Origin: a virus
Virus record (IMG/VR): IMGVR_UViG_3300046616_000193
Span: 1-41,136 of that record
Direction: 5' to 3' (one strand)
Length of the DNA stretch: 41,136 nt
Part shown: one piece after another, positions 13,463 to 40,979 of the stretch
How positions within the stretch are numbered: the stretch's first letter is position 1
How the letters are laid out: each line of letters begins with the position of its first letter
The notes under the pieces: model-generated
Database searches by the model: none
Seen by the model: the letters and a program-made list of their open reading frames with translations, nothing else
What the model was told of the DNA's origin: nothing
Made by a program: the position numbers and the translations under genes

Positions 13463-15577
13463 TTAGGCGCCGATGTTCTTCGCCAGCGTGCGGTAGTCCA
13501 GCGCCTTGACGCCGGCATCGATGCGCACCTTGAACTCGACGCCGTCGACGTTCCAGCCGTTCTGCTGCTCCAGCGTCGGGGTCTCAATGCCGTCCAGGTA
13601 CTGCACTTCCACGGTGTCGTACTTGCCCGAATCGGCCACACCGTGCCACGAGGTCGGCGAAGCGCGGTCGAGGCGCGCGTCGGCGATCACGTCGAAGTTG
13701 CCCTTGACGATGTTCGGGATGGTCGCGTTGTTGGCGCCGCCGACCGCGTACTGGCTGTCGCGCACCGTGATCGCCAGGCCTTCCAGTGCCAGCGGCACGA
13801 TCAGGTTGGCCAGGCGGATGTTCAGTGCCGACGCGTTGCCGTCGCTCTGCTTGCCCATCGCCACGCGCATCGCGTCGACCGATGCGGTGCTGATCGTCGC
13901 GGCGTTCGCGGCGTCCAGGAGGTTCTTGTGGTTGGCGTGGAACAGGGCGACGCCATCGGACATCTTCGGGTTCGTGGTCAGAATTGCGTACACGAGGTCG
14001 CCGATCGTGCGGATCGCGGCGCGGCCCATGCTGCGCGGGATCTTGGTGAACGCGCCCAGGTCATCGTTGATAATGGTCTGGCGGTTCAGCGAGAACAGCT
14101 TGCCGAAGGTCGCCAGCACCACGCTTTCGCCACGATCACTAACATCGGCGTAGTGGTACTCGGCGCCTTCGGCGATCTGGTCCAACGACGGGAAGGTATT
14201 CAGGCCGACACGGCGCGCGACCTTAAAGTCGCTCAGAGTGCCCTTCGAAGTCCACTTCTGGAAGGTCTCGTCGGCTTCTTCGTAGCCCCTGAGCATGGCC
14301 TTCTCGGCGATGTTCGACAGCAGCGACGGGAAGTCCGACGACGTATGGGTGAAGGCGGCCGACACCATCCCCATCTTGTCCATGCCGCGCGTGTTGACGC
14401 CGGCGTGGGCCAGGCACTCGCGTGCCAGCTCCATCATCGTGAAGCCGCGGTAGTTGTTGGCGCGGTCGTCCTTCTCCATGCCAGCGCGGGCCAGCACGGC
14501 TTTCTCGGCACCGGCGCGGAACTTGTCGCGCGAGTCTTCCAGCGTGACGATGTAGCTGCCGGCGACCGGGGTCGCGTCCTTGCCCAGGTGGGCCAGCAGC
14601 TTGGTGTTGGCCTGCTCGACCGAGCAGTTCACGTCATCGCAGCAGGTCGTCTGCAGCTCGGCCACCCCGGCACGGGCTGCGAAGGCGGCAAAGGCGAGCT
14701 GGATGCCCTTGCGGCGTTCGCCGTCTGCGGCCAGCGCCTGCAGGCGGATGGTTTCTTCGTTGTTGCCAGCGGGTTGCGACGCTGCCGCCGGCTGTTGGGT
14801 TGCTGCACCAGGCATGGTGTTCTCCTGTGGTTGAGTTGCGGCGGCTGCCGCGGTTGTGGAACTGGTGTATGCCGGAGTCGCTGGCGCCGTACCGGTCTGG
14901 CCGAACGACGCATAGCGCGCCTTGACGGATTCCTTCAGCTGCGCGCTGGCAGCAACCGGCAGGCCGGGGATGACGGTATCGATCAGCTTGGCCTCCAGCG
15001 CCTGCTCGGCGGTGTACCAGTGATCCTTGCCATCGGTGAGCAACGCCAGAAACTCGGCCTTGTCGGTCCCGGTCTTGGAAGCGTAGGTGGTCGACATCGC
15101 GTCAGCCCAGCTGTCGAGCATGTCCGCGTACTCGCGCATGTCGGCGCTGTTGCCGACCTGGTAGCCCCACGGCGCATGGATCATGATCTGCGCGTTCTCG
15201 GCCATCTCGACGGTGTCGCCGGCCATCGCGATCAGGCTCGCGATCGAGGCGGCGATGCCGTCGATCACGGTCGTGACCTGGGCGCTGTGGCGCTTGAGCG
15301 CGTTGTGGATCGCGATGCCGTCCGTGACCGAGCCGCCGTAGCTGTTGATGCGCACCGTCAGGTGCTCGACGTCGAGCGCCGCGACATCGCGCACGAAGTC
15401 CTTGGCCGCGATCGTGTCGCCGTACCAGCTTTCGCCGATGTCGCCGTAGATCAGGATCTCGGCGGCGGAGGCCTGCACGCCGTTGTCCGCGCCCGCGGCG
15501 GTGGCGCGCGCGTTGGTGCGGATCGTGTACCACTTGGCGGGCTGCTGGCCCTGCGGATTCTGGTTTGCTGTTGGCAT
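13463..15577 (-). CDS. ClpP-like prohead protease / major capsid protein fusion
   Basis: This 704-residue protein joins two functions. Residues about 15-205 form a ClpP-type serine protease with nucleophile Ser111 in GIAASIASL and probable catalytic His134 in IMIHAPW. A linker rich in Ala, Thr, Gln and Pro (about 228-275) leads to a Mu-like major capsid domain (about 300-704; GYEEADETFQKWTSKGTLSD; TFGKLFSLNRQTIINDDLGA; LFHANHKNLLDAANAATIS). The protease would cut the linker during prohead maturation. An internal ATG at codon 255 with a strong ribosome site suggests capsid is also made alone. The main start follows AAGGAA. Confidence 0.92.
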   Translation of the reverse strand: MPTANQNPQGQQPAKWYTIRTNARATAAGADNGVQASAAEILIYGDIGESWYGDTIAAKDFVRDVAALDVEHLTVRINSYGGSVTDGIAIHNALKRHSAQVTTVIDGIAASIASLIAMAGDTVEMAENAQIMIHAPWGYQVGNSADMREYADMLDSWADAMSTTYASKTGTDKAEFLALLTDGKDHWYTAEQALEAKLIDTVIPGLPVAASAQLKESVKARYASFGQTGTAPATPAYTSSTTAAAAATQPQENTMPGAATQQPAAASQPAGNNEETIRLQALAADGERRKGIQLAFAAFAARAGVAELQTTCCDDVNCSVEQANTKLLAHLGKDATPVAGSYIVTLEDSRDKFRAGAEKAVLARAGMEKDDRANNYRGFTMMELARECLAHAGVNTRGMDKMGMVSAAFTHTSSDFPSLLSNIAEKAMLRGYEEADETFQKWTSKGTLSDFKVARRVGLNTFPSLDQIAEGAEYHYADVSDRGESVVLATFGKLFSLNRQTIINDDLGAFTKIPRSMGRAAIRTIGDLVYAILTTNPKMSDGVALFHANHKNLLDAANAATISTASVDAMRVAMGKQSDGNASALNIRLANLIVPLALEGLAITVRDSQYAVGGANNATIPNIVKGNFDVIADARLDRASPTSWHGVADSGKYDTVEVQYLDGIETPTLEQQNGWNVDGVEFKVRIDAGVKALDYRTLAKNIGA
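14813..14826 (-). promoter_or_regulatory. Internal ribosome site and in-frame start for a capsid-only product
   Basis: On the minus strand AGGAGA (14826-14821) lies 5 nt before an in-frame ATG (14815-14813), codon 255 of the protease-capsid fusion, exactly in the linker between the two domains. Starting here gives a 450-residue scaffold/capsid protein without protease. Nested starts that solve the protease:capsid ratio are known in lambda C/Nu3 and Mu I/Z. Confidence 0.75.
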
Positions 15578-23237: not shown

Positions 23238-23266
23238 AGTGTAGTGATTACTAAACACCGCGTCAA
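23238..23266 (-). promoter_or_regulatory. Leftward promoter of the Cro-like gene
   Basis: On the minus strand TTGACG (23266-23261) and TACACT (23243-23238) are separated by exactly 17 bases. The two operators cover the -10 and the -35, so bound repressor would block it. Confidence 0.8.
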
Positions 23267-23279
23267 GTGATTACTAATT
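23239..23279. promoter_or_regulatory. Two repressor operators in the divergent cI/cro region
   Basis: Site O1 at 23239-23256 has one perfect half GTTTAGTA (minus strand) and a 6/8 second half; site O2 at 23262-23279 is more degenerate. Both contain AGTGATTACTAA, and the centres are 23 bp apart. The same 18-bp site with the same 23-bp pairing is found at 24969-25009. Confidence 0.75.
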
Positions 23280-23289
23280 TAGAAAAAGC

Positions 23290-23303
23290 TAAACTTTAGC
23301 CCA
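23290..23303 (+). promoter_or_regulatory. Repressor promoter -10 element; leaderless start likely
   Basis: TAAACT (23290-23295) lies 7 bases before the repressor ATG (23303), so transcription would begin at or one base from the start codon. There is no Shine-Dalgarno sequence and the -35 area is poor and overlaps O2, as in lambda PRM, which is repressor-activated and gives a leaderless cI mRNA. Confidence 0.6.
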
Positions 23304-23683
23304 TGGAATCAGACATTTACTCGATCCGTCGCGAGAACCTGAAGGCTTGGGTGGCCCGTCACGGCGTGCCGCCGAAGGAACGCAGCTACTTCTCCCAGTT
23401 GATGCTGGGCACGACATCCATTGGCGAACGTGCCGCCAGGCGGATCGAGGTCAGCTACAAGATGGGAGTCGGGTACCTCGACAACCCAGCCATTCCGGAC
23501 CTGTCAGGCCGTAAGTTGCCCGAACTGCCCGGCGGCAGTACGTTGGTGCGGGTGGACGCGGCCGAGCTTTATCTACTGGGCTTGTTTCGCGAATGCGATG
23601 AGCGTGGACAGGAATCGATGCTCGATGCTGGCGAGGTCAGCGAGAAGCGCTCACTTACCGGCATCCGATACAACAAGACGTAG
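23303..23683 (+). CDS. Prophage repressor, C2/CI-like without peptidase domain
   Basis: This 126-residue protein has an N-terminal DNA-binding domain (SIRRENLKAWVARHGVPPKE; YFSQLMLGTTSIGERAARRI; GVGYLDNP) like those of C2-type phage repressors. There is no LexA-type Ser-Lys peptidase domain after it, only about 50 residues (ELPGGSTLVRVDAAELYLLG), so RecA-triggered self-cleavage is not expected and induction must work differently. It should bind the 18-bp operators at 23.2, 25.0 and 36.3 kb. Its 3' end overlaps a small convergent gene by 33 bases. Confidence 0.85.
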   Translation: MESDIYSIRRENLKAWVARHGVPPKERSYFSQLMLGTTSIGERAARRIEVSYKMGVGYLDNPAIPDLSGRKLPELPGGSTLVRVDAAELYLLGLFRECDERGQESMLDAGEVSEKRSLTGIRYNKT

Positions 23684-24828: not shown

Positions 24829-24852
24829 GCACTCCACCGCGCCACCCGCCAG

Positions 24853-24875
24853 CCCCGCACAGCGGGGTTTTTTTT
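24853..24875 (+). terminator. Rho-independent terminator closing the immunity region
   Basis: CCCCGC and GCGGGG form a 6-bp stem with an ACA loop followed by eight T, 25 bases after the zinc-ribbon gene. It isolates the lysogenic genes from the early promoter 110 bases on. Confidence 0.93.
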
Positions 24876-24968: not shown

Positions 24969-25010
24969 ATTTAGTAGTTACTTGACGACGTGTTTAGTAA
25001 CTACTAAACT
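24969..25010 (+). promoter_or_regulatory. Rightward early promoter with two repressor operators
   Basis: TTGACG (24982-24987) and TAAACT (25005-25010) are 17 bases apart. A perfect palindrome GTTTAGTAACTACTAAAC (24992-25009) fills the spacer and the -10, and a second, imperfect site (24969-24986) covers the -35; their centres are 23 bp apart, as at the cro promoter. It should drive the PRTRC/replication operon and be shut in a lysogen. Confidence 0.85.
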
Positions 25011-25051: not shown

Positions 25052-25216
25052 ATGCGGAACAGAAAGACCCAGCCGTTCCTCGTCACCGTACGCACCGCCG
25101 ACCAGTGCACCCGCTACACCGACGAGCTGTCGACGTCGAGCGCCGAAGCCGCGCTTAAGGCGGCCCAGCTGTGCGGCGACACGCCGTGCGGCGTCACCGT
25201 CACCGTGCAAGGTTAA
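25052..25216 (+). CDS. Small early protein
   Basis: This 54-residue protein (MRNRKTQPFLVTVRTADQCT; YTDELSTSSAEAALKAAQLC) is the first gene after the early promoter and has a strong CGGAGG site 5 nt before the ATG. The strand-helix pattern, with AEAALKAAQLCGDTPCGVTV, suggests a small alpha/beta protein. Similar short proteins occur in phage and plasmid early regions without known function. It ends four bases before the next gene. Confidence 0.75.
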   Translation: MRNRKTQPFLVTVRTADQCTRYTDELSTSSAEAALKAAQLCGDTPCGVTVTVQG

Positions 25217-25220
25217 GGCC

Positions 25221-25646
25221 ATGCTGGTCACCGCGCCGGTCTCCATTGTCGACAGCTTAATGGACGCCGCCTTTCACGAGGCGCGCCAGGCGCGCAGCGC
25301 CGAATACAAGGAAGGCGCCCGGGCCGCGCTTGAGGCCAAGGTCAGCGGCGCCCGCGTGCACAGCCCCTACCGCTCCGGCACCGCACAGTGCGACGCCTTC
25401 TATTCAGGCGTCAACGAAGGCAACCAACTGTGGCGCGCGCACCTCGCGGCCGAAGACCGGCGCCTGGCGATCTCGGACCGCGCGGCGCTGGAGATCGGCC
25501 ACCGCCAGCTGTGCACCACCACCTCGCTCGACGACATGCTCAAGAACCCCGCCCTGAGCAAGGTCGTGCAGACGATGGCGCGCAAGCACCTGCAGCGGCG
25601 CGGCGGGTTCGATCCGAAGAAGCTGCAGGCCAACGATAACGATTAA
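25221..25646 (+). CDS. Hypothetical early protein
   Basis: This 141-residue, mostly helical protein (SLMDAAFHEARQARSAEYKE; YRSGTAQCDAFYSGVNEGNQ; LWRAHLAAEDRRLAISDRAA) has no motif I recognise. It lies between the small early gene and the PRTRC block and shares their codon use. A conserved-looking GTAQCDAFYSGVNEG segment might be a binding site. The operon context points to replication or host takeover, but nothing in the sequence decides. Confidence 0.7.
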   Translation: MLVTAPVSIVDSLMDAAFHEARQARSAEYKEGARAALEAKVSGARVHSPYRSGTAQCDAFYSGVNEGNQLWRAHLAAEDRRLAISDRAALEIGHRQLCTTTSLDDMLKNPALSKVVQTMARKHLQRRGGFDPKKLQANDND

Positions 25647-25688: not shown

Positions 25689-26336
25689 ATGACGATGTTC
25701 ACTACCCTCCATCCGCTCGCCAAGGCGGCGCAGCTGATGATCACGATCACGGCCGAAGGCGACGAGCAGCTGCGCGTCAACGTGACGCCGATCCCGGCCG
25801 ACACCAAGGCCAAGGCGCAGCTGCCGCAGCCGCTGTCGCTGCTCGCTACCCCGACCGAGTTCGACACCGACTTCGCGGCGGCGATCGCGACCTGGCACGC
25901 GCCCAAGCGCTCGCTGATCCAGCAGGCGCAGGAAGCGGCGAAAGAGAGCGCCGCCCCGGCACCGGCAAGCGCGGGCAAGCCGGTCGCGAAGACCGAGAAG
26001 ACGCCGAAGCGCCCCACCCCAGCGAAGAAGGACGCGGCCGACGCGAAGGCCGGCGGCCAGCCGGCGGCCGAGCAACCGGCTGCAGCGGGCGAAGCAAACC
26101 AGCAGGGTGATGTCGGCGCGGGCCAGCCGGGCAGCACGACCGTGGATGACGCAACGGCCACGACGAACGAGCAGGAAGTCGCGGCCACCGGCGAGCGCAC
26201 TGGCCACGAAGCGGCGCTGGGCGCAGAAGTGCAGCTCGAGGGCGCAACTGGCACCGAACCGGCCGAGCTGACCGCCGCGCTGGCCAGCGCCGACGCTGCC
26301 GCCCCGGCCGACACGCAGACCCTGAACCTGTTCTAA
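25689..26336 (+). CDS. PRTRC system protein E
   Basis: The product has 215 residues. Residues 1-80 (MTMFTTLHPLAKAAQLMITI; LRVNVTPIPADTKAKAQLPQ; PLSLLATPTEFDTDFAAAIA) match the pattern of PRTRC protein E, a component of the ParB-related, ThiF-related cassette otherwise known mainly from plasmids. The rest is a long low-complexity tail of Ala, Pro, Lys and Glu ending DTQTLNLF, which might be a peptide contacting the sliding clamp encoded downstream (QTLNLF resembles a beta-clamp binding motif). The molecular role of E is unknown. A second in-frame ATG is at 25695. Confidence 0.85.
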   Translation: MTMFTTLHPLAKAAQLMITITAEGDEQLRVNVTPIPADTKAKAQLPQPLSLLATPTEFDTDFAAAIATWHAPKRSLIQQAQEAAKESAAPAPASAGKPVAKTEKTPKRPTPAKKDAADAKAGGQPAAEQPAAAGEANQQGDVGAGQPGSTTVDDATATTNEQEVAATGERTGHEAALGAEVQLEGATGTEPAELTAALASADAAAPADTQTLNLF

Positions 26337-26347
26337 GCGAGGCAAGC

Positions 26348-26842
26348 ATGGATATCCAGAACCTCATCCGCGAATTCCGCTACAACGGCGTCACCCTCGC
26401 CGACCCGAGCGCGGCTATGTCGCTGCCGCAAGTGCGCGACTTCTACGCCAACGTCTACCCGGAAATCACCAGCGCCGATATCGAGGGCCCGGAGCAGGTC
26501 GGCGCGAAGGTCATCTACACGTTCCGGCGCGCGGTCGGCACCAAAGGCTGCGAACAGATCCGGGTGCGCACCGAGCTGCGCCTGACCGCCGGCGTCGACG
26601 CCGCGACTGTGGGCCAGCTGATCAACAGCCTCGGGCACACCGAGCAGGCCAACCTGATCGACGGGCTGGCGGACCTGTTGCCGACGAACGTGCTCAACGA
26701 CGCCGACAGCACCCTGGTCAAAGAAGCCCAGCTGCTGGTGCATACCTGTCGGCTGGCCGAGCTGCCCGAACGTGACCTGGGGCGCCTGGGCGTGCTGAGC
26801 TACGAGCACGGGGTGTTCGCGCTGGAGCTCGTGGCATGCTGA
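26348..26842 (+). CDS. PRTRC system protein C, ubiquitin-like, with unusual C-terminal extension
   Basis: The protein has 164 residues. Residues about 6-67 (REFRYNGVTLADPSAAMSLP; VRDFYANVYPEITSADIEGP; VIYTFRRAVGTKG) are PRTRC protein C, proposed to have a ubiquitin-like fold and normally about 70 residues, ending near the GTKG. Here about 97 extra residues continue in frame (RTELRLTAGVDAATVGQLIN; LIDGLADLLPTNVLNDADST) with no break in codon use. If the GTKG end is used for conjugation, the tail would have to be removed, perhaps by the JAMM peptidase encoded nearby. I do not recognise the extension. Confidence 0.85.
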   Translation: MDIQNLIREFRYNGVTLADPSAAMSLPQVRDFYANVYPEITSADIEGPEQVGAKVIYTFRRAVGTKGCEQIRVRTELRLTAGVDAATVGQLINSLGHTEQANLIDGLADLLPTNVLNDADSTLVKEAQLLVHTCRLAELPERDLGRLGVLSYEHGVFALELVAC

Positions 26843-27036
26843 ACCGCGTCGTGGCGATCGAGCGCCTGCGTACGTGCGGCCGGCTGTCGGCCGCGCCGCG
26901 GCCGCAACACGTGATCACCGCCGAGCAGCTCGACGCGCGGGTGGCCTGCGACGTCAAGCGCCTGCTCGACCAGCACGCCCGCCTGACGGGCCCGCGCTGC
27001 CTGGCGCCATCGGTCAACCATGCGGTGCTGCCGTGA
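26836..27036 (+). CDS. Small protein between PRTRC C and F
   Basis: This 66-residue basic protein (MLNRVVAIERLRTCGRLSAA; ITAEQLDARVACDVKRLLDQ) overlaps the end of protein C (ATG at 26836 before its TGA) and is itself overlapped by the GTG start of F (GTGA). The tight coupling on both sides supports a real gene. No motif is recognised. It might be a phage-specific insertion into the cassette or a small partner of C or F. Confidence 0.65.
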   Translation: MLNRVVAIERLRTCGRLSAAPRPQHVITAEQLDARVACDVKRLLDQHARLTGPRCLAPSVNHAVLP

Positions 27037-28082
27037 GCCTGCCCGCCACCGCCGCAACGCTGGCCCTACCCCGGCTCGCCCCGACGATCCCGGTGCAGTA
27101 CACGGTACCGGGCGTCGACGCGCTGACAGTGCCGCTGACCGTGGCGCTACTGGAGGCCGGCGTCATCACGGATGCCATGCTGCGCACGCCGCGCAACGCA
27201 CTCACCGACCCGATCGAGGGCGAGAGCGAACGCGCACTGTCGGCACGCGCGCTGTCGCACTGGTGGACCCGGCTGATCCGCACCACGCCCTGCAAGTTCT
27301 TCCGCTGGAGCCTGCACGTGCAGCAACTGGCCGTCGATGCGCCGGTACCGGCAAACACGGCCTGGTTCTGTTTCAACCGGATGCAGGGCGAGATCCCGCG
27401 CTTCGCGCTGGCGGCAGGCGTCGAGCGCCTCGAGCGCGCGCAGACCGGGCTCGGCCAGACGGTGCTGGCGGTGCTGCGCGACGCCATGCTGCTGCTGCCC
27501 GACTCGCTCAACCCGTGGCTGGCCATCGACTGGGTGAACTGGGCCTGGTGGCAAGACACCGAGAACGATGCCGAACTGCTGGAGATCAAGCGCATTGAAC
27601 ACGGCTACAAGTCAGTGCCGGAGCTGCTCGAGAACGAACGAGTCATCACGCGCGCGATGTTCTACGAGCGCATGCCGGAATGGGTCTGCAAGCCGGTCCG
27701 CGTGCTGTCGCGCGAGGAGATCGGCTCCGGCCGCGGCGAGTTTGCCCAGCGCGTGGTGGCAGTGTGCGACATGCTCCACCACCTGGTCAGCCGCCCCGAC
27801 TTCGTCCTGCGCCCGGAACACTCGGGCTCTTACCGGTGCGGCTACGAGACCGTCGACGGCACGGTCGTGCTGCTGTGGAAGCAGTTCGACGTGATCGGCG
27901 AAGCAATCGACGAGTACCTGAACCACCTCGGGGACACCGGCGACTACTGCGAATTTATCGACGCCAACCCGGTCCCGATGACGGCCGAGGGCATCCGCGA
28001 GTTCCAGACCCTGACCAAGCAAAAGATCGAGGTCGCGGTGCTGGTCGAGAAACTCATTCTTCTACTGGGAGAAAAATATTGA
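27033..28082 (+). CDS. PRTRC system protein F
   Basis: This 349-residue protein is close to the usual PRTRC F length. Segments RALSHWWTRLIRTTPCKFFR, WLAIDWVNWAWWQDTENDAE and ITRAMFYERMPEWVCKPVRV are rich in conserved-looking Trp and Arg. Its place between C and B is the normal order E-C-F-B-A-ThiF. The GTG start at 27033 overlaps the preceding stop as GTGA. No enzymatic motif is visible and its function is unknown. Confidence 0.8.
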   Translation: MSLPATAATLALPRLAPTIPVQYTVPGVDALTVPLTVALLEAGVITDAMLRTPRNALTDPIEGESERALSARALSHWWTRLIRTTPCKFFRWSLHVQQLAVDAPVPANTAWFCFNRMQGEIPRFALAAGVERLERAQTGLGQTVLAVLRDAMLLLPDSLNPWLAIDWVNWAWWQDTENDAELLEIKRIEHGYKSVPELLENERVITRAMFYERMPEWVCKPVRVLSREEIGSGRGEFAQRVVAVCDMLHHLVSRPDFVLRPEHSGSYRCGYETVDGTVVLLWKQFDVIGEAIDEYLNHLGDTGDYCEFIDANPVPMTAEGIREFQTLTKQKIEVAVLVEKLILLLGEKY

Positions 28083-28822
28083 GCCTGCACACCGTAGAAA
28101 TTCTCGGTGCCGGCGCCACCGAGCTCAACTTGGTCGGCGCGCTGCTGATGTACCAGTCCAACCGCGGCGACGTGTATGCCACCTCGCACCCGATCGATAT
28201 CGACGCCAGCAACCCGGGGCAGCGGATCATCGGGGCCGGCGTGCCGCTGTCGAAGGGCATGCTGACGCAGTTCGCCGACGCCGTCGGGAAGGCGACCGCG
28301 TTCTCCGGCTTCGTGCCGGACAACCTCCTGTATAGCTCGCCCAACCTGATCGCCTGGTGGACACCCGCCGCAATCCGCACCACCTGGTTCAAGCCGGCCG
28401 GCACGGGCAAGCTCGCCGGCCAGGGCCCGGCCGCGCACCCGGCGCTGGTATTCGTCGCCACCCCGGACGAATGGCACGTGTTCGCCCTGCGCGACGACCG
28501 CCGCCCGGGCCCGGCCACGCGCCTGTGCCACGCACCCCACTTCAACGTGTGGGACGGCGGCACGATCTGCACCGGCAATGTCGAGCTGCCGCCGGTACCG
28601 GGCGCCGACGCGATCGCCCAGTACGAGCGCGCGTTCTTCCGCAGCCACTTCACGCACCCGAACCGCAGCAAGGCCGTCAGGTACAAGGGCGGCATGGAGC
28701 AGCTCTGGCGTGACCAGCTCCGCAACCCCGACCCGGAGGCGATGCGCGCTGCACTGCTCGACTCCGGCGAAACCCTGCAGGCGGCGATCAAGCGCATTGC
28801 CGCCACCACGACTTCACGATAA
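28079..28822 (+). CDS. PRTRC system protein B (proposed E2-like)
   Basis: This 247-residue protein has features of PRTRC protein B: NRGDVYATSHPIDIDASNPG, FVPDNLLYSSPNLIAWWTPA, VWDGGTICTGNVELPP, and FFRSHFTHPNRSK. The family has been placed with prokaryotic E2-fold proteins; Cys164 in GGTICTGN is the natural candidate for an active-site cysteine. It starts at a TTG (28079) overlapping the F stop as TTGA, preceded by GGGAG. With C, A and ThiF it completes a ubiquitin-like conjugation set. Confidence 0.85.
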   Translation: MSLHTVEILGAGATELNLVGALLMYQSNRGDVYATSHPIDIDASNPGQRIIGAGVPLSKGMLTQFADAVGKATAFSGFVPDNLLYSSPNLIAWWTPAAIRTTWFKPAGTGKLAGQGPAAHPALVFVATPDEWHVFALRDDRRPGPATRLCHAPHFNVWDGGTICTGNVELPPVPGADAIAQYERAFFRSHFTHPNRSKAVRYKGGMEQLWRDQLRNPDPEAMRAALLDSGETLQAAIKRIAATTTSR

Positions 28823-28837
28823 CAACGAGGCCCACCC

Positions 28838-29611
28838 ATGCACACCCAAGAAATCAACGCCAAGTTCGACGAGCTGCTATCCCTCACCCGCCAGAACTTC
28901 GAGCTCTTCACCCGCACCGCCGCCGAAGCCTTGAAGCTGCAACGCCCGCTGCCGCTGGCCGTCGATGAGGACACCGCGCAGCCCGAGCAGCTGCAGCTCG
29001 ACATGGCGCTGCTCGCCGCGGCGCCGTTCGCCGCCGTGCCGCGCCACGCGCCGTTCCACCCGCTGCAGGACAACGGCCACCGCTTCCTGCTGGCCACCGA
29101 CGGCCTGTACCTCGAAGTGCGCCGGCCGTGGCTCCACCTGGTCCACCCGCTGGCGCCGCAGACCGCGGTCACCGTGCCGTATGGCGCACTCCAGAGTCAG
29201 TGCTCGCTCGACTTCGGCAAGATCAGCACCGCGCTGCCGCAGCTGAAGGAGTTCGCGGCAACCGCAGCGGCGACGGCGCCGATCGAGGCCGCCGCCAGCC
29301 TGCTATGGAACCACAAGGAGCGCACTTGGCGACTGGCGACGCCCGAGACCATCGGCGAGGCCAGCGAAAGCCGGATCCAGTACCGGCAGGTCGAGTGCGG
29401 GCCCGACGAATCGCTCGTGATCGACCTGCACAGCCATGGCCACGGCCCGGCCTACTTTAGCGCGACCGACAACGAGGACGACCGGGGCAGCGTGAAGATC
29501 GCCGGCGTCTTCGGCGACCTCGACAAGGCCAACCCGACGGTCGCGTTCAGACTGTGCATGCTCGGCCTGTATATCCCGATCAACGTCCCGGCCGAGCTGA
29601 TCTTCGGGTAA
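28838..29611 (+). CDS. PRTRC system protein A, JAMM/JAB metallopeptidase-like
   Basis: The product has 257 residues. The C-terminal domain contains a complete JAMM motif, His198-x-His200-x7-Ser208-x2-Asp211 (IDLHSHGHGPAYFSATDNED), which binds catalytic zinc in deubiquitinase-type peptidases; Glu150 (PIEAAASLLW) is a possible fourth catalytic residue. The N-terminal 110 residues are variable and lead into LLATDGLYLEVRRPWLHLVH. The likely role is processing or removing the ubiquitin-like protein C. Spacing to B is 15 bases and to ThiF 3, so all are one operon. Confidence 0.87.
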   Translation: MHTQEINAKFDELLSLTRQNFELFTRTAAEALKLQRPLPLAVDEDTAQPEQLQLDMALLAAAPFAAVPRHAPFHPLQDNGHRFLLATDGLYLEVRRPWLHLVHPLAPQTAVTVPYGALQSQCSLDFGKISTALPQLKEFAATAAATAPIEAAASLLWNHKERTWRLATPETIGEASESRIQYRQVECGPDESLVIDLHSHGHGPAYFSATDNEDDRGSVKIAGVFGDLDKANPTVAFRLCMLGLYIPINVPAELIFG

Positions 29612-29614
29612 GCC

Positions 29615-30388
29615 ATGCCGCACATCACCCCACCCGCCCTGCTGCAGCGCCCGGTCCGGATCGCCCTGATCGGCTGCGGCGGTAACGGCTCGCAGATGCT
29701 CACTGGTCTGGCGCGCCTGAACCACGCGATCACGGCGCTGGGCCACCCGGGCCTGATCGTGCGCGCCTACGATCCGGACACCGTCAGCGAAGCCAACATA
29801 GGGCGCCAGCTGTTCGGCAGCTTCGACGTCGGCGCCAGTAAGGCCCACGTGCTGGTCCAGCGGATCAATGCGTTCTTTGGCCTGAACTGGCAGGCGCACT
29901 TCGGCCGCTACGAAAACGATGGCCACGGCTGCCAGATCGCGATCGCCTGCGTCGACAGCGCCCGCGCGCGCCACGAGGTCCACGCCAAGCTGAAACGGCA
30001 GCCGGCCCTGTACTACCTGATGGACCTCGGCAACCGTGCCGCCGACGGCCAGGTGCTGTTCGGCGAACTGTCGCGGGGCCCCGGGATGACAGGCAGCACG
30101 CCCCTGCCCAGCCCGTACACCGTGCTGCCGGAGCTCGTCGACCGCAGCGCCAAGGAAGACGACACGCCGAGCTGCGGGCTGGCCGAGGCGCTTGAGCGCC
30201 AGGAGCTGTTTGTCAACCAGTCCGTCGTCACGCCGGCGCTGTCGATCCTGTGGGAGTTCTTCAGGCACGGCAAGCTGACCTGGCACGGCGCCTTCGTCAA
30301 CCTGCGCACGGGCAGCATGCGGCCGTTGACCGTGCGCGAGCCCGAGCCGCAAGCCGCCACCGATACCAACAAGGGAGACCCGAAGTGA
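29615..30388 (+). CDS. PRTRC system ThiF family protein (E1-like adenylyltransferase)
   Basis: This 257-residue protein has the E1/ThiF/MoeB fold: a nucleotide-binding loop IGCGGNGS (19-26), the strand-end acidic group YDPDTVSEANIGRQLF (52-67; Asp53, Arg64, Gln65) and Lys76 in GASKAHVL, all typical of enzymes that adenylate the C-terminus of a ubiquitin-like protein. ACVDSARARHE (111-121) corresponds to the second conserved strand. No CxxC zinc pair is seen. It would activate protein C. Its stop overlaps the GTG of the clamp-like gene. Confidence 0.92.
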   Translation: MPHITPPALLQRPVRIALIGCGGNGSQMLTGLARLNHAITALGHPGLIVRAYDPDTVSEANIGRQLFGSFDVGASKAHVLVQRINAFFGLNWQAHFGRYENDGHGCQIAIACVDSARARHEVHAKLKRQPALYYLMDLGNRAADGQVLFGELSRGPGMTGSTPLPSPYTVLPELVDRSAKEDDTPSCGLAEALERQELFVNQSVVTPALSILWEFFRHGKLTWHGAFVNLRTGSMRPLTVREPEPQAATDTNKGDPK

Positions 30389-31101
30389 TCCAGTTCAACG
30401 CATCTTTTCTCGCGGCCCTGATGCCGTTTCGCGCCATGAACGACGTGCGCTACTACCTGGGCGGCATCCACGTCACGCCCCACCCGGACGGCGGCGCCCT
30501 GCTGATCGCCACCAACGGGCACATCATGATGTGCGTGTACGACACCAGCGCCACCTGCTCGGAAGCGGTCACGTTCGCACTCGGCGCCGACGCGGTCAAG
30601 CACTGCGGCGCGCGCGTCGGGCAGCCCCCGTCGGTCGTGACGATCAATCCGATCACCCAGCGCCTGACCATCAGCAGCGGCGTTGGGCAGGAACTGTATC
30701 TCCAGCCCGGCAAGTGCCTGCTCGACTACGCCGAGAAGCCGGACGGCGCCGTGCGCACGAGTGCCTTCCCCGACTGGCGCCGCATCGTGCCGAAAGTGGC
30801 TGACCTCAAGCCTGGCTATGCCGGCTGCGTGCAGGCCAAGTACATCGAACAGGCGGCGCGCTCGCATCCGCTGCGCGGCAAGCGTCATATGACGCCAGCC
30901 ATACGCTTTTGGCAGGTCAATGAAACGGGCATCGTCGCTGTCGAGTATGAGGGCGCCCCGGAATACATGGGACTCATCATGCCCATGCGCCTTGAGCGAC
31001 TTAACGCCAGCTACGACGCACCGAGCGCCGCTTCACTTTGGCAGAAGGCATTCGCACCGACCGAACCGGCCACGGATCCCGCTGAAAAGCTGGCGGCCTG
31101 A
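30385..31101 (+). CDS. Shortened DnaN-like sliding clamp
   Basis: The product has 238 residues. Sequence signatures of the bacterial beta clamp are present: DVRYYLGGIHV and GGALLIATNGHIMM (domain 1 type), SAFPDWRRIVPK (domain 2 type), and the very characteristic C-terminal MGLIMPMRL. A normal clamp has three domains and about 366 residues; this has room for about two, so one domain is missing and the ring may be built differently (for example as a trimer). The GTG start has AAGGGAG upstream and overlaps the ThiF stop as GTGA, tying the clamp to the PRTRC genes. Confidence 0.82.
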   Translation: MIQFNASFLAALMPFRAMNDVRYYLGGIHVTPHPDGGALLIATNGHIMMCVYDTSATCSEAVTFALGADAVKHCGARVGQPPSVVTINPITQRLTISSGVGQELYLQPGKCLLDYAEKPDGAVRTSAFPDWRRIVPKVADLKPGYAGCVQAKYIEQAARSHPLRGKRHMTPAIRFWQVNETGIVAVEYEGAPEYMGLIMPMRLERLNASYDAPSAASLWQKAFAPTEPATDPAEKLAA

Positions 31102-36247: not shown

Positions 36248-36299
36248 GTTTAGCAGTTACTTGACCACGCTAGTAAATTAAGTTTAGTATCTACTAAAC
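36248..36299 (+). promoter_or_regulatory. Repressor-controlled promoter before the AlpA-like gene
   Basis: TTGACC (36261-36266) is followed by TTAGTA or TAGTAT at 17-18 bases. A perfect palindrome GTTTAGTATCTACTAAAC (36282-36299) covers the -10, and a second site GTTTAGCAGTTACTTGAC (36248-36265) covers the -35. The two centres are 34 bp apart, one helical turn more than the 23 bp seen at the other two promoters. No gene lies in 36223-36354. Confidence 0.8.
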
Positions 36300-36354: not shown

Positions 36355-36606
36355 ATGGTCCCGGAGGACTTGGCTGCTCAGTTTAGGGAACGCGTTGGCA
36401 AGGTCGGCGCTGGTGGTGTTGTTGTGTTGTTCGATGGTGTTTGTTGCAGTTGGGTTAACTGCCTTCGCAATCCCGAGCATTGGCGCATCGGTGCCCTAGC
36501 TGTAGCCGAAGATGGCCGTAAATGGAAAGCCGTTGGGCGTGTTCGCGCCAATGGCGATGACGCTGCGTCTGTTTGGTCTGAGTTGATGCCGGAATCTAGA
36601 AAATGA
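36355..36606 (+). CDS. Hypothetical protein before AlpA
   Basis: This 83-residue alpha/beta protein (MVPEDLAAQFRERVGKVGAG; GVVVLFDGVCCSWVNCLRNP; WRIGALAVAEDGRKWKAVGR) has a GGGAGG site 7 nt before the ATG and overlaps the AlpA-like gene by four bases. It is the first gene after the third repressor-controlled promoter, so it should be made when the prophage is induced. No function is recognised. Confidence 0.7.
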   Translation: MVPEDLAAQFRERVGKVGAGGVVVLFDGVCCSWVNCLRNPEHWRIGALAVAEDGRKWKAVGRVRANGDDAASVWSELMPESRK

Positions 36607-36818
36607 ACCACCGCGTTTTACGCCTGCCAGAGGTCAAGTCCAAGACTGGGCTGGGCCGCACAACGATCTACCGCATGGAGTCGAGCGGCGCATTCCCGCG
36701 GTCCATCCCCTTGGGGGGCAAGGCGGTCGGCTGGATCGAAGCCGAAATCGACGGCTGGATCGAGGCGCGCATGGCCGAGCGTCAAGGTGCGCCGGCAGCC
36801 TCGAGCGCATCGATGTAG
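36603..36818 (+). CDS. AlpA family regulator (excisionase-like)
   Basis: This 71-residue protein is a compact winged helix of the AlpA family (VLRLPEVKSKTGLGRTTIYR; MESSGAFPRSIPLGGKAVGW; IEAEIDGWIEARMAERQ). AlpA of P4-like elements activates or performs excision together with the integrase. It faces the integrase gene and the two overlap by 37 bases at their 3' ends, so high AlpA transcription would interfere with integrase mRNA. Its promoter carries repressor operators. Confidence 0.9.
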   Translation: MNHRVLRLPEVKSKTGLGRTTIYRMESSGAFPRSIPLGGKAVGWIEAEIDGWIEARMAERQGAPAASSASM

Positions 36819-39790: not shown

Positions 39791-40194
39791 TGCGCGCCGC
39801 GATCGCCCTCCTGCTGGCCAGCGCGACGCTGCAGGTACAAGCCCAGCCCACCACCTGTCCGCCGATGCTGGCGAAGGCAGCCGTCGCAGTCAAGGCGCCG
39901 GCCGGCTGGCAGGGTTATTCCTCGAGCCTCATGCGCCTGACCGGGTTCGGGATGATGGCCGGGCCGCCCGAATCGATGACCTACCTGGTGCCAGCGAACA
40001 GCAAGAAGCGCAAGGACGGCAGCGTCACCATCTGGCAATTCGCCGGCGGCGGCGAAAAGTGGCTGTACTGTACCTACGACGGCTCGGCGGCGATCCAGAT
40101 CTCGCGCCGCCTGGACGACACCAGCACCCGGTGCGAAGTGTCGGCCAAGACGGCGGGCGGCGTGGTCCAGGCCGCCGAGGCCGTCTGCCGCTAG
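39790..40194 (+). CDS. STY0301 family exported protein (probable periplasmic immunity)
   Basis: The product has 134 residues. A typical signal peptide (MRAAIALLLASATLQVQA, cleavage after AQA-like VQA) leads to a small beta-rich mature protein (SMTYLVPANSKKRKDGSVTI; WQFAGGGEKWLYCTYDGSAA; STRCEVSAKTA) with four cysteines. Genes of this family are commonly found next to BPSL0067-type amidases, and a periplasmic location is where an amidase inhibitor would protect the cell wall. Its stop shares a CTAG with the convergent methyltransferase stop. Confidence 0.8.
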   Translation: MRAAIALLLASATLQVQAQPTTCPPMLAKAAVAVKAPAGWQGYSSSLMRLTGFGMMAGPPESMTYLVPANSKKRKDGSVTIWQFAGGGEKWLYCTYDGSAAIQISRRLDDTSTRCEVSAKTAGGVVQAAEAVCR

Positions 40195-40979
40195 AACAAC
40201 CCGGCCGGATCCGCGGCGCGGTCCCAACTGTAGATGATCACCTCGGAGCGCTCCGCGGTCCTGCCGGCGCCGCCCACGATGTAGTTGATAGGAACGGTGT
40301 CCATCTGGAACGCCGCGAAGATGCGCCGGATCTCCGGGTGATCGTTCAGGCTGACGATCGCCTTGCCCTTGATGCGCGCGAGCAGCTCGGCCATCTTCTC
40401 GTACTCGGCGATCCCGAAGTCCACGCCATAGCCCTCGGTCTCCCAATATGGCGGATCCAGGTAGAACAGCGTGTGCGGTCGGTCGTACCGCTCGATCAGC
40501 TTGTACCAGTCCATGTTCTCGATGTACGTGCCCGCCAGGCGCAGGTGCGCGGCCGACAGGTTCTCTTCGATCCGCAGCAGGTTGACCGGCGGCGCCGTGG
40601 TGGCCGTGCCCCAGTTCTGCCCTTCGACCTTGCCGCCGAAGGCCTGCTGCTGCAGGTAGAAGAAGCGCACCGCGCGCTGGATGTCGGTGAGCGTGTCCGG
40701 CGGCGTGACCTGGTGCCACTTGAACACCTCCCGGCTAGAGAGCGCGAACTTGAAGTGGCGGACAAATTCCTCGAGGTGGTTCTGCACCACCCGGTACAGC
40801 CGGACCAGCTCGCCATTGATGTCGTTGATCACCTCGACCTCGGCCGGCGGCCGCAGGAAGTACAGCGCAGCGCCGCCGGCGAATACCTCGACGTAGCACT
40901 TGTGCGGCGGGGACTGCGGAATCAGGTAGTCGGCCAGACGGCGCTTGCCGCCCATCCACGGGATAATTGGAACAGCCAT
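40191..40979 (-). CDS. DNA adenine methyltransferase, D12 class (Dam-like)
   Basis: This 262-residue protein has the D12-class signatures: PWMGGKRRL at 7-15, motif I VFAGGAALYF (32-41) binding S-adenosylmethionine, and the catalytic DPPY at 175-178 (LFYLDPPYWETEG). It transfers a methyl group to N6 of adenine in a short recognition sequence that cannot be read from the protein. It would mark phage DNA against host restriction or alter regulation. It lies downstream of the lysis genes across the circular junction but has its own AAAAGG ribosome site. Confidence 0.93.
   Translation of the reverse strand: MAVPIIPWMGGKRRLADYLIPQSPPHKCYVEVFAGGAALYFLRPPAEVEVINDINGELVRLYRVVQNHLEEFVRHFKFALSSREVFKWHQVTPPDTLTDIQRAVRFFYLQQQAFGGKVEGQNWGTATTAPPVNLLRIEENLSAAHLRLAGTYIENMDWYKLIERYDRPHTLFYLDPPYWETEGYGVDFGIAEYEKMAELLARIKGKAIVSLNDHPEIRRIFAAFQMDTVPINYIVGGAGRTAERSEVIIYSWDRAADPAGLF

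Follow-up and report, generated by a model that had tools for sequence, protein, structure and literature searches.

A PRTRC-type ubiquitin-like conjugation cassette without ParB, predicted to lie under repressor control in a temperate phage

The cassette and its genes

The window analysed here is the complete IMG/VR virus record IMGVR_UViG_3300046616_000193 (41136 bases, in which no end repeats were found). Judged by its protein families, the early operon on its plus strand encodes a full pathway for ubiquitin-like conjugation, of the PRTRC or Iyer type 6d kind and without ParB. Families were assigned with the NCBIfam PRTRC models at their curated cut-offs, together with Pfam and PHROGs. Six plus-strand genes, in the order E-C-F-B-A-ThiF, score above these cut-offs: E (25689-26336; TIGR03741, 69.4 bits against a cut-off of 37.95, E-value 2e-19), the ubiquitin-like C (26348-26842; TIGR03738, 96.6 bits, 7e-28, over residues 3-67 only; Pfam Prok_Ub), the helical F (27033-28082, GTG start; TIGR03742, 67.6 bits against 58.4, 9e-19; weak alpha-hel2), the E2-like B (28079-28822, TTG start; TIGR03737, 197.5 bits, 2e-58; Prok-E2_D, 132 bits), the JAMM metalloprotease A (28838-29611; TIGR03735, 210.6 bits, 2e-62; Pfam DUF2016 and Prok-JAB) and the E1-like ThiF (29615-30388; TIGR03736, 310.9 bits, 5e-93; Pfam ThiF). 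The curated cut-offs rule out chance similarity as the source of these matches, and Pfam is concordant, so that the PRTRC identity which a first-pass annotation had given to the six genes from the sequence alone is borne out. In PHROGs, E, C, F, B and A match no family, and ThiF finds only marginal ones. No solved structure matching ThiF, A, B or C by sequence was found.

The same annotation had counted six genes. There are seven, since a 66-amino-acid open reading frame between C and F, here called X (26836-27036, plus strand, C-terminus CLAPSVNHAVLP), had been missed; it is recognized by its position and its C-terminal motif. The genes had also been described as overlapping, which is true of C/X, X/F, F/B and ThiF with the gene after it, whereas E/C, B/A and A/ThiF are separated by 3-15 nucleotides.

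The residues expected of the three enzymes are in place, as counted over the roughly 100-140 collected cassettes carrying each gene. In A, which has an N-terminal DUF2016 domain, the JAMM set His198/His200/Ser208/Asp211 (HxH...S..D) is invariant. In B, Cys164 is invariant and a downstream His193 is nearly always present. The GxGGxG loop of ThiF, together with its Asp, Asn61, Arg64, Gln65 and Lys76, is invariant or nearly so. The first reading had named the JAMM motif, the nucleotide loop with its Asp/Arg/Gln/Lys set and the candidate Cys164 correctly; Cys187 of ThiF had gone unlisted, and is a Cys in 138 of the 138 alignment rows having a residue at that position.

These residues also bear on what the pathway is for. 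ThiF belongs to the family after which it is named, and a sulfur-carrier or cofactor pathway of the ThiS/ThiF type could be imagined in place of protein tagging. However, an E2-like protein whose Cys is invariant does not fit such a pathway, and neither does a JAMM peptidase; neither is known to have a place in thiamine or molybdopterin synthesis, and we consider the idea almost certainly wrong.

A model search for ParB (TIGR03734) found none in the window, as had been noticed before, and ParB was likewise not found in 48 of the 50 related viral records searched. By its gene content the cassette is therefore a ParB-less variant of PRTRC and not a typical member.

Carriage by a phage lineage and control of the operon

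The cassette is not confined to this phage. A scan of IMG/VR returned 64 loci whose ThiF is 45-83% identical to that of the window, and roughly 60 IMG/VR phages and prophages of Burkholderiales share the gene order. The survey of gene order that had been proposed found E-C-F-B-A-ThiF on a single strand in 59 of the 62 viral records by automatic reading-frame order; two of the three exceptions (loci L051 and L054) are normal when judged by match positions. It is also carried by BgVeeders33, an isolated Burkholderia gladioli phage from sewage with a complete record and Mu-like tail genes, where its genes carry the labels hypothetical protein and 'dinucleotide-utilizing enzyme'. One of two papers that mention BgVeeders33 discusses the packaging genes of this phage. 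Phage-type copies were further found in genomes of Massilia, Duganella, Janthinobacterium, Paraburkholderia, Caballeronia, Burkholderia, Cupriavidus and Trinickia.

The ThiF tree unites 66 phage-type sequences in a single clade (Shimodaira-Hasegawa-like approximate likelihood ratio test support 99) with no plasmid members, and places three further ones in a second group; among plasmid ThiFs, the best match to that of the window has 47% identity. Because the phage ThiFs share a deep clade that excludes plasmid PRTRC, the cassette is evidently a long-term property of these phages. PRTRC is known mostly from plasmids with ParB, and the window could in principle hold a plasmid maintenance or partition cassette, recently captured and unused by the phage, a case that the first-pass annotation had named as refuting it. 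Against this speak the tree, which rules out recent capture, the near-general absence of ParB and the purifying selection described below. We regard it as highly improbable.

Several loci deserve separate mention. The two records with ParB-type genes, L057 and L059, are viral-classified contigs with divergent PRTRC; L059 scores above the PRTRC ParB cut-off and may be a plasmid or phage-plasmid. On the Azonexus hydrophilus plasmid NZ_CP151407.1 (L072), a PRTRC cassette with a 57-residue C tail and no annotated ParB adjoining it has NinX-like, Lar-like and integrase genes close by, and is possibly a phage-derived segment. Another set of cassettes (L096-L100, L110, L113-L115 and L136-L154; most Bacteroidota, Pelobacter, Pseudomonas, Deinococcus) is missing A and keeps C, B and ThiF; in these, C stops exactly at its terminal Gly (Ala in Pelobacter).

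The window itself is, by its gene complement, a temperate phage, since it encodes an integrase, an AlpA/Xis-type protein, a repressor, Cro- and CII-like regulators and virion proteins, in agreement with the earlier assignment. The virion genes, on the minus strand, comprise terminase, portal, a ClpP-like protease joined to the major head protein, tape measure, tail fibre and endolysin. The regulatory centre consists of a repressor-like gene on the plus strand (23303-23683; PHROG 5736, transcriptional regulator, E-value 2e-7) and of minus-strand Cro-like, CII-like and O-like genes. The early operon starts at about 24982, and the integrase and AlpA/Xis-like genes lie close to its end.

The promoter of this operon carries the marks of repressor control. 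When the operator pattern AGTAACTACTAA was scanned with at most two mismatches, counting a palindromic site on both strands, the window gave eight matches against 0.22 expected, in three groups. The first comprises the paired half-sites TTTAGTAGTTACT and AGTAACTACTAAA (24970-25008, no mismatches at either), whose arms stand on both sides of a sigma-70-like promoter, TTGACG-17-TAAACT (24982-25010, plus strand), found by consensus scan; a terminator-like site lies just upstream (24851-24869). The second group (23240-23278) lies between the repressor and the Cro-like gene, and the third (36249-36298) is at a promoter before the AlpA/Xis-like gene, both located by pattern and promoter scans. Three of the five promoter-like sites in the region, namely the Cro-side, cassette and pre-AlpA-like-gene promoters, are bracketed by operator groups. 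The third group precedes the AlpA/Xis-like gene (36603-36818), which suggests that the same repressor also controls excision.

Relatives show a similar layout. L011, L089 and L085, which have a related repressor or Cro, carry similar sites near cro/cI and upstream of the cassette, and in L019 and L043 different dyads recur at corresponding positions. Opposite-strand Cro-, CII- or O-like genes lie upstream of the cassette in many relatives, BgVeeders33 among them. The early claims of a phage operator at the cassette promoter and of a place in an early, PL-like operon thus find support. From the architecture of the operator-flanked promoter, we infer that the cassette is repressed in the lysogen and expressed early upon induction, and probably used in lytic growth.

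This arrangement weighs on another explanation, namely that the cassette is a prophage-borne defence or superinfection-exclusion system shielding the lysogen, in the manner of Bil or of Cap2/Cap3 of the cyclic oligonucleotide-based antiphage signalling system (CBASS). Related pathways do act against phages (PMC10097602; PMC13373217). However, the cassette follows an operator-flanked promoter that has a terminator-like site before it, and should be silenced in the lysogen by the prophage repressor; in many relatives it takes an early-operon position beside cro/cII. Such a defence role appears improbable to us; the early placement argues for a part in takeover over one in lysogen protection.

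Other genes of the window need only brief mention. Between promoter and cassette lie, on the plus strand, a small leader open reading frame of 54 amino acids (25052-25216), kept in near relatives (tblastn 42-52% in several viral loci), and one of 141 amino acids upstream of E (25221-25646), partly conserved in relatives (tblastn 38-64%). The next gene downstream (30385-31101, plus strand) was first called a sliding clamp. A match to a processivity-factor family (PHROG 947, E-value 3e-4) leaves it a possible clamp-like protein, but its best match (PHROG 3007, 5e-25) is labelled RusA-like. The accompanying 'helicase' is weakly supported too, with matches to primase-type PHROGs (1e-13 to 6e-13). 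At 13463-15577, a single open reading frame of 704 amino acids combines the ClpP-like head maturation protease with the major head protein, and a D12-class adenine DNA methyltransferase gene lies near the record end (40191-40979, minus strand).

The C protein, its tails and protein X

In the C protein of the window, a 67-residue ubiquitin-like domain ending RAVGTKG, with a conserved Gly67, is followed by an extra domain of 97 residues. An AlphaFold2 model places a beta-grasp fold at residues 7-60, disorder at 63-81 and helices or a helical domain at 85-153. A model of a C-X fusion looks alike at lower confidence, and a drop in confidence at its junction fits a flexible linker there. Some phage C proteins end at the GTKG, and in most phages C extends beyond it, by 1-100 residues overall. 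The ending RAVGTKG is invariant in phages regardless of what follows, and the tails after it are of at least these kinds: X-type, two helical types, and singletons. At L058 (7061-7435), C is fused to a four-Cys tail with a zinc-ribbon-like arrangement (CAGC...CREC).

The tails go together with A. Over 121 distinct cassettes, a tail after GTKG is present in 75 of the 92 with A and in none of the 29 without it (Fisher 2e-16), which suggests that A is the protease maturing a C precursor. If tail changes are placed at random on a tree of which 36% of the length is A-less, the chance that all 12 fall in A-bearing parts is about 0.005. Close pairs give ratios of non-synonymous to synonymous substitution rates (dN/dS) of 0.12-0.35 for the tails and 0-0.32 for the C core, and purifying selection is seen on the C core, on close-pair tails, on ThiF and on A; between the window and L046 the tail is too divergent for an informative dN/dS. 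A precedent exists in the JAMM enzyme BilC, which cuts BilA and frees its Gly (PMC11354881).

As a gene, X encodes 54-83 amino acids across phages, plasmids and Bacteroidota. All viral cassettes examined have one X domain of about 57-94 amino acids between C and F, with last residues VLP, VLA, LLP or PLP (for example MPVLP). In most it is a separate open reading frame abutting C, and in about 25 it is fused to C directly after GTKG. Plasmid cassettes mostly have a frame of about 69-72 amino acids at this place, ending LPDIDLPMVF and similar, and Bacteroidota cassettes have frames of 57-61 amino acids ending LPMVF. The small frame is unannotated in the plasmid records L071, L105, L106, L107, L109 and L116, and in L115, from Parabacteroides, it runs into the gene annotated next. 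Of 124 distinct loci, 105 show the C-terminal pattern, compared with 1.1% of random windows; the pattern was derived from these same loci, so that the background rate is the independent figure.

Profiles of phage and plasmid X match each other (E-value 4e-4), and those of Bacteroidota and plasmids match in the C-terminal motif only (1.5e-4), while Bacteroidota and phage profiles gave no match. Homology across phyla, based on position and C-terminal motif, is therefore put forward only as an inference. X is recognized by no model of Pfam or NCBIfam, which speaks against its being a known family. In close pairs, X has dN/dS of 0.14-0.7. We propose X as a candidate seventh PRTRC component, mostly unannotated, and it should be considered for PRTRC annotation.

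The tails might instead stay on, with C-tail and C-X proteins acting intact, the ubiquitin-like domain docking and the second domain serving as effector or preferred substrate. X being both fused to C and its free neighbour would be expected of interacting partners too, and the purifying selection on tails fits equally. Yet the RAVGTKG end does not vary with what comes after it, certain phage C proteins terminate exactly there, the catalytic Cys of ThiF is retained, tails are absent from every A-less cassette, and disorder is predicted at the junction. We therefore judge intact action rather unlikely.

An early-expressed conjugation pathway with C matured by A is the reading we favour, with moderate confidence. 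Several points weigh against it. The structure models of C and of the C-X fusion rest on shallow alignments, with mean predicted local distance difference test scores of 66 and 74. Fold searches with window C and with the fusion gave no significant match; for the fusion, ubiquitin-fold chains were among the weak, non-significant ones. The A-tail association is phylogenetically weak: A switches only about five times on the tree, and for this reason an independent-pairs test, which was not significant, cannot reach significance. The four inferred tail gains taken alone give p 0.17. Seventeen cassettes carry A together with a tail-less C, which means that A must have a further task. Lastly, operator control of the cassette is itself a prediction from DNA sequence.

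Proposed pathway and comparison with known systems

Under the favoured reading, loss of repression would lead to transcription of the early (PL-like) operon, and C would be translated as a precursor in which a flexible linker joins the second domain to the ubiquitin-like domain. A would cut C after Gly67, and possibly reverse conjugation later. ThiF would then adenylate the exposed Gly67 and pass C via Cys187 to Cys164 of B, which would attach C to target proteins with the assistance of F, E and X. Cleavage by A, conjugation and expression in lytic growth are all predictions. For an early operon, the best guess is that the targets are proteins of host defence or of replication. More tentatively, and with somewhat less than even confidence, we suggest a core early function of these phages: C would be synthesized in cleavable linkage to one of several interchangeable partner domains, the near-universal X among them, the JAMM protease would free both halves, and C would modify host or replication proteins in lytic takeover. 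Concrete hypotheses on modifier maturation follow from X and from the fusions of C, and function is directly testable with BgVeeders33 and with the copies in cultured Duganella, Janthinobacterium, Paraburkholderia, Burkholderia and Cupriavidus.

To our knowledge, PRTRC has no established function. Of the 26 papers containing the term PRTRC in the open, non-preprint literature searched, none is by title about phages, and in that literature we found no description of the ParB-less phage branch, its repressor control, X or the C fusions. Ubiquitin-ribosomal protein fusions are familiar from eukaryotes, where in UBA52 and RPS27A the ubiquitin domain ends in Gly and an unrelated protein follows. 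The likeness to phage C is an analogy and not homology, and cleavage of phage C is only predicted.

Pathways of this kind are already known, under the name PRTRC and as operon type 6d (Iyer et al. 2006, PMC1779556). With PRTRC of large plasmids (TIGR03734-TIGR03742) the phage cassette shares E, C, F, B, A and ThiF in the same order and above curated cut-offs. In contrast to the plasmid form, it is without ParB, sits in a repressor-operator early operon, has a separate ThiF clade, and its C usually bears a long second domain. In the accessible part of its description, type 6d has a ubiquitin-like protein with a conserved Gly, an E1-like and a helical protein, a JAB protein with an N-terminal alpha+beta domain, as A has with DUF2016 and Prok-JAB, and an E2-like protein with a His downstream of the Cys, as in Cys164/His193 of B. 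The ubiquitin-like protein of that type ends in its conserved Gly; in the window Gly67 of C is conserved and 97 residues follow it. The features described there are those of a bacterial system with a small standalone ubiquitin-like protein, and include neither X nor fusions of C, nor carriage by phages.

Bil (BilABCD) likewise combines a ubiquitin-like protein with E1, E2 and a JAMM enzyme, the last of which matures the ubiquitin-like protein (PMC11354881). It differs in being a host antiphage pathway with tandem ubiquitin-like domains and no PRTRC E, F or X, whereas the pathway of the window is phage-borne. CBASS Cap2/Cap3 resembles it in E1-E2 conjugation and JAB deconjugation (PMC10097602), but has a fused E1-E2 and serves host defence; only the E1 domain of the window weakly matches a related model, 6A-MBL. 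Bacterial ubiquitin-like pathways are mainly known as host systems, several of them antiphage. In the present case such a pathway belongs to a phage lineage, which appears to turn it on in support of its own growth.

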